Positions 6,769-40,920 of a stretch of DNA of 58,208 bases are shown here, in pieces. Every line of letters starts with the position of its first letter. The stretch's first letter is position 1. Made by a program: the position numbers and the translations under genes. The DNA lies in assembly GCA_903922605.1 (NCBI GenBank), contig CAIXUG010000017.1:1-58208 (forward strand). The letters are read 5' to 3'. The DNA comes from an uncultured Verrucomicrobiota bacterium. GTDB lineage: Bacteria > Verrucomicrobiota > Verrucomicrobiia > Limisphaerales > UBA9464. The notes beneath the pieces are model-generated. The model worked only from the letters and a program-made list of their open reading frames with translations. It was not told the DNA's origin and did no database searches.

Positions 6769-6916
6769 TGCCCGGTAGGTTGCGAAGACAGGGGCGGCAA
6801 CGCAAAAGAGTTTTGGCCGGATGTGCCCGCCCCGAAGAGAAGTATTGCAAAGTCCCCACCAATGGTCACCCCGGACTCCCTTTCATTCAATCGGCTCACC
6901 CCGCCCATTCCGCGGC

Positions 6917-6940
6917 TTTGAGCTTTGAATTTTGAGCTTC
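6917..6940. repeat. Short heptamer array upstream of hisA
   Basis: Three consecutive 7-bp units of the form TTTGAGC, TTTGAAT, TTTGAGC are followed by a partial copy. This matches the 7-bp period of the other arrays but is one-sided: no inverted partner is visible in the surrounding 200 bases. It lies about 50 bases before the hisA start. Confidence 0.65.
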
Positions 6941-34467: not shown

Positions 34468-35235
34468 CTACTTCGAAATGCCGCGCTCGCTCGCCCGGAT
34501 GAACGCGACCAAGTGATCCAAGTCGGGTGACTTCGTCAGCTCGGATTCGATCTTCGTGAGGGCATTCGAGATGGTTAGCCCCTCGCGGAAGAGAATCTTG
34601 TAGGCGTGCGTGAGCGATTTCACTACCTCGGGAGCAAAGCCGTTGCGCTCAAGACCGACCTTGTTGATGAAGCGGGTCTCGGCCGGGTTGCCGTCCCCCA
34701 TCATGAAGGGCGGGATGTCCTGCACGACCTTGGCGCAACCGCCGATCATTGCGTACTTGCCGATGCGGCAGAACTGATGCACGGCGGCTAGCCCGCCGAT
34801 GATCGCGTGATCCTCGACGGTGACATGCCCCGCGAGCGTCGCCACGTTGGACATGATGATGTGGCTGCCGAGTTGCACGTCGTGTGCCAGATGGACGTAA
34901 GCGAGAAAATGGTTGTGCGAACCCACCCGCGTGACGCCGCCGTCGCTGGTGGCGCTGTGAACCGTGACGTATTCGCGGAGGACGTTGCGATCGCCGATCT
35001 CCACGCGAGTGACGCCGCCTTTCCACTTCAGGTCCTGCGTCTTGAGACCAAGGCAGGCGAACGGGAAAACCTCGTTGTCGGCACCGAGGGTGGTGTGTCC
35101 GTCGATGACCACGTGAGAATGCAACTTGCAACGATCGCCGAGGCGGACGTGTTCGCCGATGACGCAGTAGGGCCCGATGTGGCAGTCGGTGCCGATTTGG
35201 GCGCCCGCATGAATAATGGCAGTGGGATGAATCAT
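34468..35235 (-). CDS. lpxA: UDP-N-acetylglucosamine acyltransferase
   Basis: Transfers a 3-hydroxyacyl chain from ACP to UDP-GlcNAc, the first step of lipid A synthesis. The 255 residues from MIHPTAIIHAGAQIG form a left-handed beta-helix of hexapeptide repeats. The catalytic His is in AYVHLAHDVQLGSH, VHQFCRIGKYAMIGG is the family signature, and a C-terminal helical domain ends the protein. The start at 35235 is certain from MIHPTA. It lies downstream of lpxC-fabZ, but a four-helix-bundle gene with flanking repeats has been placed between them. Confidence 0.95.
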   Translation of the reverse strand: MIHPTAIIHAGAQIGTDCHIGPYCVIGEHVRLGDRCKLHSHVVIDGHTTLGADNEVFPFACLGLKTQDLKWKGGVTRVEIGDRNVLREYVTVHSATSDGGVTRVGSHNHFLAYVHLAHDVQLGSHIIMSNVATLAGHVTVEDHAIIGGLAAVHQFCRIGKYAMIGGCAKVVQDIPPFMMGDGNPAETRFINKVGLERNGFAPEVVKSLTHAYKILFREGLTISNALTKIESELTKSPDLDHLVAFIRASERGISK

Positions 35236-35236
35236 C

Positions 35237-35657
35237 GGGAACAGCGAACTAGGAACGGCGAACAGCGCGCGTGGTTGAATTTCGGGCCGTCTTCTTCGAG
35301 GCAAGCATAATGGCTGTGAGCTGGCTGGCTTCCTGGTGTACACGGACGCGTTCAGTGTCACCGGATAAACCCAGCTCGCCTAGGATTTCCAGCCAGTAGC
35401 CGGATTCGTCAGCCTCTTCTTCGACGATTGAAAGCTTGTTAATAAAATCGGCGAGCGACTTGCCGCGACGGGCGGAACGGTAGTTGGCGCCGACTGAACC
35501 CGCTGCCCGTCCGAGCTGGCCACGGACAATCTGGAATTCGGCTTTTCCGGGCAACCGCGCGCAGAACTTCAGCACATCCACCGCAAACCGTTTGGTCCGA
35601 TCCTGCAAATCGTTCATGACTCCATTGTGTCGCGCTGTTCCCTGTTCGCTGTTCGCC
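35237..35657. mobile_element. Four-helix-bundle gene bracketed by inverted heptamer arrays
   Basis: The left arm 35237-35271 has four 7-bp units of the GAACAGC type. The right arm 35631-35657, read on the minus strand, has three such units. Both arms end inward in GAACAGCGCG, so they are terminal inverted repeats around the gene at 35249-35617. The left arm supplies the gene's TAG stop. The unit sits between fabZ and lpxA as if inserted. Calling it mobile is inference; no transposase is present and I could not define a target duplication. Confidence 0.55.
35249..35617 (-). CDS. Four-helix-bundle protein (S23/intervening-sequence type)
   Basis: Protein of 122 residues of the four-helix-bundle family first known from ORFs inside 23S rRNA intervening sequences. 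The core is textbook: DLQDRTKRFAVDVLKF, IVRGQLGRAAGSVGANYRSA, RRGKSLADFINKLSIVEEEA, DESGYWLEILGELG. The family forms pentamers with a basic surface thought to bind nucleic acid. The last residues (TTRAVRRS) and stop come from the flanking heptamer array. It interrupts the lpxC-fabZ/lpxA cluster with short gaps on both sides (44 and 13 bases). Confidence 0.88.
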   Translation of the reverse strand: MNDLQDRTKRFAVDVLKFCARLPGKAEFQIVRGQLGRAAGSVGANYRSARRGKSLADFINKLSIVEEEADESGYWLEILGELGLSGDTERVRVHQEASQLTAIMLASKKTARNSTTRAVRRS

Positions 35658-35661
35658 GTTT

Positions 35662-37056
35662 TTACCGTTCAAAGAACATGCAGGTCACGACCGCCTCGCT
35701 CACAACCTCGTCGTTGACGAGGCACGTTCCCTTGGCGCGGCCGATCTTCCCGCGGGACTTGGTCAGCTCGACCTCGATGATGAGCGTATCGCCCGGGGTG
35801 ACGGGTTTGCGCCATTTCACATCCTCGGCGGACATGAAGTAGGCCAGTTTCCCCGCATTCTCGGCCTGCCGCATCATCAGGATGCCGGCGACCTGGGCGA
35901 TGGCCTCCAGTTGCAGGACCCCGGGCATGATCGGGTGGCCGGGGAAATGGCCGGCGAAGTACGGTTCGCCGATGGTGACCTGCTTCAGCGCGGTGATCTT
36001 GTTGCCCTCGATCTTGAGCACGCGGTCCACCATCAGGAACGGGGGCCGGTGCGGCAGGAGCTTCATCACCTCGTTGATGTCGAGCGAGGCGCCGTCCTTG
36101 ACGGCAGGTTCGGCAGCGGCGGTGGACACAGGTTTCGGAGCGGGCTTGGAGGATTTGGAACTGGGAGCTTCAGGCTGCTGGGTGGTGGCCGGTGGCGGGG
36201 CGAACGTCTGTGCCTGCTCCAGGGGACGGCGCATTTGGGCGAGAATGGCCTTGGCCAGCTCGGTGTTCGCGTGGTGGCTCGGCTTCACCGCGACGACATG
36301 GCCGTGGATGGGGCGGCCCACCAGCGAGAGGTCACCGACGATGTCGAGCATCTTGTGCCGGACAAACTCCTCCGGGTAGCGGAGCGGCTCATTGGTCAGG
36401 ACAGCATCCTCGCGGATCACGATCGCGTTTTCCAGGCTGCCACCCTTGATCAGCCCGTTGCGGATCAGGAACTCGATCTCCTCGTAGAAGCAGAAAGTGC
36501 GCGCGTGGCTGAGCTCCTTCTCCCACGTCTCCGGCGTCACCTCCGTGGAATAGAACTGGGTAAAGCGGCCACCTTTATCGGAGCTGGTGCAGGTGATCTT
36601 GAAGCCGTTGTACGGAAAAATGGCCAGCTGCGTCTCCCCGATGGTCAGCTCGATCGGCGTGGTGATCTTGTAAGGCTCGATGGGATCGGTCTGGACCGTG
36701 ATGCCGGCTTCGCGGACCAACTGGGCGAAGTCCCGCGAACTGCCATCGGCAATGGGCGGCTCATTGGAGTCGATCTCAATGATGGCATTGGTCACCCCGG
36801 CCCCGGCAAAGGCGGCCAGCACATGCTCCACCGTGTGGATTTTGACCGGCCCCTTGCTCAGGGTGGTCGAACGCTGGGTATCGGTGACGAATTCGGCCCG
36901 GGCCTCGAGCTCCGGCTTGCCGTCCAGATCAATGCGCCGGAAGCGCAGCCCGGTGTTGGGCGGCGCGGGCAGGAAATTCATGCTCACCTTGTTTCCCGAA
37001 TGCAGGCCGATGCCGGCAAAGGAAACAGGCTGGCGGAGAGTTTGTTGCTGCGACAC
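35662..37056 (-). CDS. Bifunctional LpxC-FabZ fusion
   Basis: The N-terminal half (to about residue 280) is UDP-3-O-acyl-GlcNAc deacetylase: FAGIGLHSGNKVSMNF, zinc His in IHTVEHVLAAFAGAG, zinc His and Asp in RHKMLDIVGDLSLVG, and the general His in KPSHHANTELAK. After a Pro/Ala/Ser linker, the C-terminal half (about 315-464) is 3-hydroxyacyl-ACP dehydratase, with active-site His and Glu in GHFPGHPIMPGVLQLEAIAQ. The fusion is known from Bacteroidetes and related phyla. GTG at 37056 (VSQQQTLRQPVSF) fits LpxC N-termini; the frame also has TTG at 37092. It links lipid A and fatty-acid supply in one chain. Confidence 0.93.
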   Translation of the reverse strand: MSQQQTLRQPVSFAGIGLHSGNKVSMNFLPAPPNTGLRFRRIDLDGKPELEARAEFVTDTQRSTTLSKGPVKIHTVEHVLAAFAGAGVTNAIIEIDSNEPPIADGSSRDFAQLVREAGITVQTDPIEPYKITTPIELTIGETQLAIFPYNGFKITCTSSDKGGRFTQFYSTEVTPETWEKELSHARTFCFYEEIEFLIRNGLIKGGSLENAIVIREDAVLTNEPLRYPEEFVRHKMLDIVGDLSLVGRPIHGHVVAVKPSHHANTELAKAILAQMRRPLEQAQTFAPPPATTQQPEAPSSKSSKPAPKPVSTAAAEPAVKDGASLDINEVMKLLPHRPPFLMVDRVLKIEGNKITALKQVTIGEPYFAGHFPGHPIMPGVLQLEAIAQVAGILMMRQAENAGKLAYFMSAEDVKWRKPVTPGDTLIIEVELTKSRGKIGRAKGTCLVNDEVVSEAVVTCMFFER

Positions 37057-37154
37057 CGGAGCGTTGTAGCGGACGGACAAAGGGGTAGGCAATGGCTGCG
37101 TTTGCCGGATCGGATGCAGGCGAAACCTTATTGCCGGAACAGAGTTACACTCCC

Positions 37155-40784: not shown

Positions 40785-40920
<136 letters not shown>

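Follow-up and report, generated by a model that had tools for sequence, protein, structure and literature searches.

Inverted tandem heptamer arrays around a four-helix-bundle gene between lpxC-fabZ and lpxA suggest a widespread class of element

The junction between two lpx genes in an uncultured Verrucomicrobiota bacterium is filled by a four-helix-bundle (4HB) gene enclosed by two mirrored arrays of 7-bp units, and the recurrence of this arrangement suggests that the element belongs to a widespread class in which a 4HB gene is framed by inverted tandem heptamer arrays. We read it as a relative, living in mRNA operons, of the intervening sequences (IVS) of 23S rRNA, with arms that pair in the transcript, and give this reading a probability of about 0.5. 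The reading builds on the architecture, the matched arms, the turnover of their unit, the presence and absence of the element at a precise junction and the protein-coding constraint on its gene. Throughout, the window is the whole stretch of 58,208 nucleotides that was analysed.

In the minus-strand transcript the right array (35631..35661, GAACAGC-type, CGCGCTGTTCCCTGTTCGCTGTTCGCCGTTT) is the 5' arm and the left array (35237..35269, GAACAGC-type heptamers, GGGAACAGCGAACTAGGAACGGCGAACAGCGCG) the 3' arm. Both arms end inward in GAACAGCGCG; direct reading confirmed the mirrored GAACAGC arms that had been proposed from the sequence alone. The 4HB gene (35249..35617, minus strand, 122 aa, PF05635 / TIGR02436) is the sole ORF of at least 80 aa inside the arms, and its TAG (35249-35251) is supplied by the left arm, as had also been proposed. 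Upstream lies a gene that we take to be an lpxC-fabZ fusion (35662..37092, minus strand), whose TAA at 35662-35664 adjoins the right array; downstream lies a gene that is presumably lpxA (34468..35235, minus strand), whose ATG at 35235 is abutted by the left array. Both neighbours' names are those of the sequence-only reading. With the lpxC-fabZ stop codon at 35662-35664 and the first base of lpxA at 35235, the unit occupies the entire junction; it splits the two genes, as claimed, by filling the whole gap between stop and start. The pattern GAACAGNGAACAGNGAACAG, with at most one mismatch, has 20 matches, some overlapping, in the 5.3-Mb genome to which the window belongs and its reversed control has 0, so these arrays are not due to chance.

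The 4HB protein scored 50.2 bits against PF05635 (cut-off 33.8) and 73.6 bits against TIGR02436 (cut-off 24), which supports the S23-type identity first assigned to the gene by eye. One solved structure, 2rld, was matched by the 4HB profile, and a PHROGs search in the same analysis gave no match. Between the window gene and its homologue at the lpx site of another genome (L075), dN was 0.17 and dS 2.08, and the evidence from the remaining close 4HB pairs pointed in the same direction; the gene is under purifying selection.

A search for the FabZ domain covered 58 genomes including the window's own, of which 57 matched, and the lpx junction was read in the 30 that were fetched (the own genome and 29 relatives). 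A 4HB element of 426-463 nt was present in the own genome (G000), G003 and G036, while 27 of the 29 relatives had none. The element-free junctions measured 3-47 nt in 25 of these 27; the other two, G011 (141 nt) and G016 (315 nt), were longer, with no 4HB element. The closest relative, G004 (FabZ 100% and LpxA 94% identical), has an empty junction of 17 nt, matched in length and form by those of G001, G002 and G005, whereas G003 is occupied though more distant (FabZ 92%, LpxA 84% identical). By parsimony, absence would be the older state in the genus, and either G000 and G003 would have gained the element separately or one of them gained it and the region was exchanged. In the one comparison made by eye, G000 against G004, about 17 nt appeared replaced and no target-site duplication was seen. 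The proposed insertion between lpxC-fabZ and lpxA is thus borne out by the relatives' junctions, and the pattern that would have told against the sequence-only reading, relatives that always carry the gene at this site without repeats, did not appear.

We rejected the view of the window as a single odd case, the same architecture being found in loci of the same order, across phyla and in a census of single genomes. PF05635 matches occurred in 39 of the 58 own and same-order genomes, among the matches listed. The same-order set comprised 64 fetched loci among the matches listed, 8 of them from the own genome; L007 and L008 (the same genes as L102 and L074) and L052 (at a contig end) were left out, and a period-7 array had to reach at least 11 of 14 matches. 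Such arrays stood upstream of the gene in 41 loci, downstream in 42 and on both sides in 34, and other periods, 14 excepted, reached at most 8, 6 and 5 loci in the same positions. Stretches far from the gene held period-7 arrays in 14/420 cases.

The cross-phylum set was the best 80 of at least 587 pattern matches, a choice biased toward the clade of the window's protein, and by record title it spans at least eight phyla (titles name Verrucomicrobia, Bacteroidetes, Ignavibacteria, Calditrichia, Chloroflexi, Planctomycetes and relatives, Proteobacteria, Acidobacteria, Armatimonadetes and a Nostoc). Tests were made on 77 of these loci, three with short flanks being dropped. Inverted-complementary flanks were found in 69/77, against 12/77 when partners were swapped and 12/77 in direct orientation; a period-7 array stood on at least one side in 70/77 and on both sides in 48, with the next best period on either side, 14 aside, in 14 loci. 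Far stretches held such an array in 60/1275 cases. At L111, L127 and L159 the measures used detected no array and no inverted flanks.

The census took in seven genomes (8/8 copies in G058, 8/8 in G059, 5/5 in G068, 10/11 in G069, 6/8 in G065, 2/2 in G062 and 1/1 in G061), and it shares 7 of its 40 loci with the best 80 of the cross-phylum set. Either the array or the inverted flanks were detected at 36/40 loci, inverted flanks at 33/40, against 3/120 with swapped partners; the misses were L299, a weak family match, and L306, L310 and L313. By eye, the 4HB arms of L294, L305 and L311, from two Bacteroidota genomes, have a period of 8, not 7. Because inverted 7-bp arrays flank 4HB genes with strong enrichment in all three sets, the absence of enrichment that would have told against the sequence-only reading did not occur.

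The sequence of the heptamer varies between loci and the mirror symmetry stays. Units were readable in 118 loci, 108 of them comparable on both sides, after leaving out loci without an array of 11/14, L107, L154 and L173 (taken as copies of L101, L080 and L079) and L074, the window itself. The upstream unit agreed with the reverse-complemented downstream unit at six or more of seven positions in 86/108 loci; in direct orientation 4 of 108 agreed, and agreement between different loci was 9.1%. Read inward, units are C-poor (C 11%, G 30%), with G exceeding C in 94 and C exceeding G in 7 of the 118. Strict grouping of insertion sites, again without the three copies, gave 19 shared operon sites holding 55 loci, among them the lpx site (L074, L075, L076, L104, L105, L123) and a site that we take, from its sequences, to be livG|livF, shared by five Verrucomicrobia loci and one Ignavibacteria locus (L119). 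A looser grouping, which wrongly placed two further ABC-transporter loci (L118, L165) at livG|livF and separated the lpx loci from one another, was replaced. At shared operon sites the units differ in 22/43 pairs, therefore both arms change in concert. The arms are thus inverted 7-bp arrays, as first described, but share no single conserved sequence, the unit differing between most loci; a GAACAGC-specific element was rejected on the same ground.

The own genome has eight PF05635 genes, of which the window copy alone has GAACAGC arms. The remaining seven carry different units in their arms, mostly heptamers as judged by eye, the exceptions being L002 (8-periodic), L004 (6-periodic) and L006 (weak). 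In nine places of this genome GAACAGC arms form an inverted pair with no gene between them, the distance being about 40-130 nt and the order always GAACAGC-first (some arms by eye); single GAACAGC arrays stand in five places (L010, L014, L017, L023, L028), and all these copies share one unit. The window itself holds a second, gene-less inverted pair (40785..40920, arms 83 nt apart) whose unit, GGAGACA, is the arm unit of another 4HB gene of the own genome (L001, G000:C14). Single period-7 arrays stand at 1754-1790 (GGGGAGC) and 6913-6936 (GCTTTGA) of the window, with no PF05635 match nearby. As gene-less pairs and single arrays exist, the arrays need no gene in cis; and because units vary and gene-less pairs exist, the class is defined by its architecture and not by a terminal sequence.

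Two gene-less sites could be followed among congeners. The L013 unit is absent in 4/7 of them, which have a 9-nt junction instead; in G004 it has decayed, and G002 and G003 show no clear copy. At the L009 site, where the own genome has a GAACAGC pair and no 4HB gene, seven congeners show a mixed pair (G004), single ACTGATC tandem arrays (G002, G003), longer-unit inverted pairs (G001, G006), an empty site (G007) and an unreadable one (G005). The mixed pair of G004 (L354) joins a GAATTTC-type left arm to a GAACAGC-type right arm and is perhaps an intermediate of unit replacement; the matching of arms is therefore not absolute. Gene-less inverted pairs with units of about 8-12 nt, e.g. CGCAGAGG, were seen at L357, L358 and L186 (12384-12580), and pairs of other units also occur in G055, which has no PF05635 match, and in G001/G006. 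The pairs with 8-12-nt units are possibly a separate repeat class.

No strict period-7 array was found in the 702 kb taken from 15 same-order genomes without a PF05635 match (arbitrary stretches, sampled from the 19 genomes without one among the matches listed); 1.2 Mb from 17 genomes with 4HB genes held 129, and 13 of these 17 genomes had at least one. This contrast is only partly controlled for phylogeny, because the negatives are all of the same order and the positives are more diverse. One Nostoc holds 107 of the 129, leaving 22 in 800 kb; within the order alone, 9 arrays in 400 kb compare with none in the 702 kb. Other periods are also higher in the 4HB genomes, mostly through Nostoc (12 arrays of period 6, 21 of period 8 and 19 of period 9). 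In this Nostoc linckia (L324-L343) the 107 strict arrays lie in 400 kb that include one 4HB element, against 8 PF05635 genes in 9 Mb, and they are reminiscent of the cyanobacterial STRR repeats. Among its 63 neighbouring array pairs 15 are inverted and 12 direct, against 4 and 4 for random partners; the first arm is G-rich in 15/15 of the inverted pairs and the second C-rich in 14. Units of solitary arrays matched known arm units at 7/7 positions in 3/8 cases in the own genome, window included (4% when shuffled), and in 9/107 in Nostoc (6% when shuffled), both weak signals, as is the result of a looser array scan, in which inverted pairs numbered 1 against 0 in 458 kb and 302 kb.

Folding of the minus-strand RNA of the element, the check proposed at the outset, is predicted to close the arms (-170.9 kcal/mol, z -3.0, 1/100 shuffles as good). 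In 123/139 elements the predicted RNA joins 14 nt or more of the 5' flank to the 3' flank by pairing; swapped 3' flanks reach this length fairly frequently too (84/139), and the own duplex is the stronger one in 115/139. These predictions do not distinguish action in RNA from action in DNA, where inverted repeats pair just as well. Neighbours were called mechanically as the longest nearby ORF, and in raw strand counts without a background rate the upstream neighbour shares the strand of the 4HB gene in 98/123 loci, the downstream one in 95/121, and both are co-directional with it in 79/126. The own genome has a gene for RNase III. It gave no match to the reverse transcriptase family RVT_1 (PF00078) at 95.8% completeness, and copying by a resident reverse transcriptase is thus unsupported in this host.

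On the reading that we favour, the arms would pair in the polycistronic transcript, where tandem units tolerate slips of register, and the duplex would be cut, most likely by RNase III by analogy with the 23S rRNA IVS. The cut would free the 4HB message and leave both host ORFs intact, such that operon junctions may be a tolerated site for an mRNA version of the rRNA IVS. The 4HB protein would bind the arms as nucleic acid. Complementarity of the arms is probably kept by hairpin-templated copying of one arm off the other in DNA (template switching) together with slippage, or by selection for pairing; in this host a resident reverse transcriptase is an unlikely means of spread. Of the original proposal of an mRNA-operon relative of the IVS, the family, the arrays, the insertion and the enrichment stand as observations, and the pairing of the arms as an RNA prediction.

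The main rival, which we consider unlikely, is a mobile element acting at the DNA level, whose arms are (single-stranded) DNA ends for the 4HB protein and a recombinase of the host or supplied in trans, with the gene-less pairs as non-autonomous, MITE-like derivatives and RNA pairing incidental. The precise presence and absence at the lpx and L013 junctions, the end polarity that gene-less pairs of the own genome and Nostoc share with 4HB arms, and an own genome without an RVT_1 match all fit such an element, but the element carries no transposase, the 4HB gene being its only ORF of at least 80 aa, its terminal sequences vary between copies, unlike known TIRs, and the lpx comparison by eye showed about 17 nt replaced with no target-site duplication. 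The arrays might instead generate themselves at operon junctions through slippage and hairpin-templated copying, the 4HB gene being a passenger inside or tolerating them. Array turnover without a 4HB gene at the L009 junction among congeners speaks for this second rival, as does the excess of arrays over PF05635 genes in Nostoc (107 in 400 kb, 8 in 9 Mb). We nevertheless hold it to be improbable, given the counts of strict arrays (none in the 702 kb from genomes lacking 4HB genes, 129 in the 1.2 Mb from genomes having them), and given that heptamer similarity rises with 4HB protein identity (Mantel r 0.34, 0/2000 permutations), a correlation that joint inheritance could yield and can explain in part.

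More doubtful still is a regulatory module in which binding of the 4HB protein to its own mRNA arms would control translation of the downstream gene. Here the 3' arm adjoins the start codon of that gene and strong purifying selection acts on the protein, as would be expected of it, but its sporadic presence (the own genome and 2/29 relatives at lpx) and the many different host operons argue otherwise.

A broader claim can be attached to the IVS-like reading: PF05635 elements may form a class over many phyla, known solely by architecture (inverted heptamer arrays of an arbitrary, co-evolving unit, a tiny gene and targeting of operon stop/start junctions), with the rRNA IVS as its ribosomal branch and its decay products as a main source of the excess of heptanucleotide repeats in bacterial genomes, for which an explanation has long been lacking. 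Taken jointly, we put this tentatively, at somewhat less than even odds. If true, it would assign a genomic role to a protein family that is large but functionally blank, the IVS would become one special case of an element frequent in mRNA operons, and two old questions could be put to the test, namely the function of the S23/IVS protein and the abundance of heptanucleotide repeats.

A literature search that left most subscription journals outside found no report that links heptamer arrays to 4HB genes outside rRNA. Like MITEs and REP/RAYT, these elements are dispersed, small and intergenic, with inverted repeats and gene-less copies; unlike them, they have no end sequence common to all copies and no transposase inside, and their ends are tandem heptamers of variable unit. 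We know of no mobile element whose ends keep period and mirror symmetry but not sequence. The arms also resemble heptanucleotide SSRs, STRR and TAACTGA repeats, which are 7-nt tandem repeats of intergenic DNA and often lie shortly before a start codon. In the accessible part of one report, heptanucleotides are given as the commonest class of long simple repeat in most genomes of a 2007 survey (Mrazek 2007, via PMC4679880) and the TAACTGA repeats of Beggiatoaceae are described as heptamers almost entirely in direct repeats (PMC4679880); the terms 'S23', '23S' and 'four helix' are absent from that text. PF05635 is stated to be related to Avd, the four-helix bundle of diversity-generating retroelements, in the part of PMC10053308 at hand; unlike the case of Avd, the window element has no room for a reverse transcriptase and its genome no RVT_1 match. 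According to the available part of PMC11270868, insertions within the 16S and 23S rRNA genes of CPR bacteria contain the IVP domain.

The nearest known system is the 23S rRNA IVS, which shares with the window element a PF05635 protein, a length of about 0.4 kb and inverted termini that fold the whole element; by the predicted fold, complementary termini close the window element as a stem, the mark of an IVS. As far as the accessible part of its report goes, the Coxiella IVS has terminal inverted repeats, a 28-bp stem and excision by RNase III in vitro, and 2-3 tandem heptamers, reported on the 5' side only, precede its S23p ORF at the RNase III cleavage site, with no mention there of such elements beyond rRNA (PMC4990558); tandem heptamers are thus common to both. 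Its authors hold that the IVS RNA matters more than S23p, which they think is decaying (PMC4990558, same part), whereas the 4HB genes here are under purifying selection. Unlike an IVS, the window element sits between lpxC-fabZ and lpxA and not in 23S rRNA, and elements of its type occur in several copies per genome, at different operons and with a unit that differs by copy.
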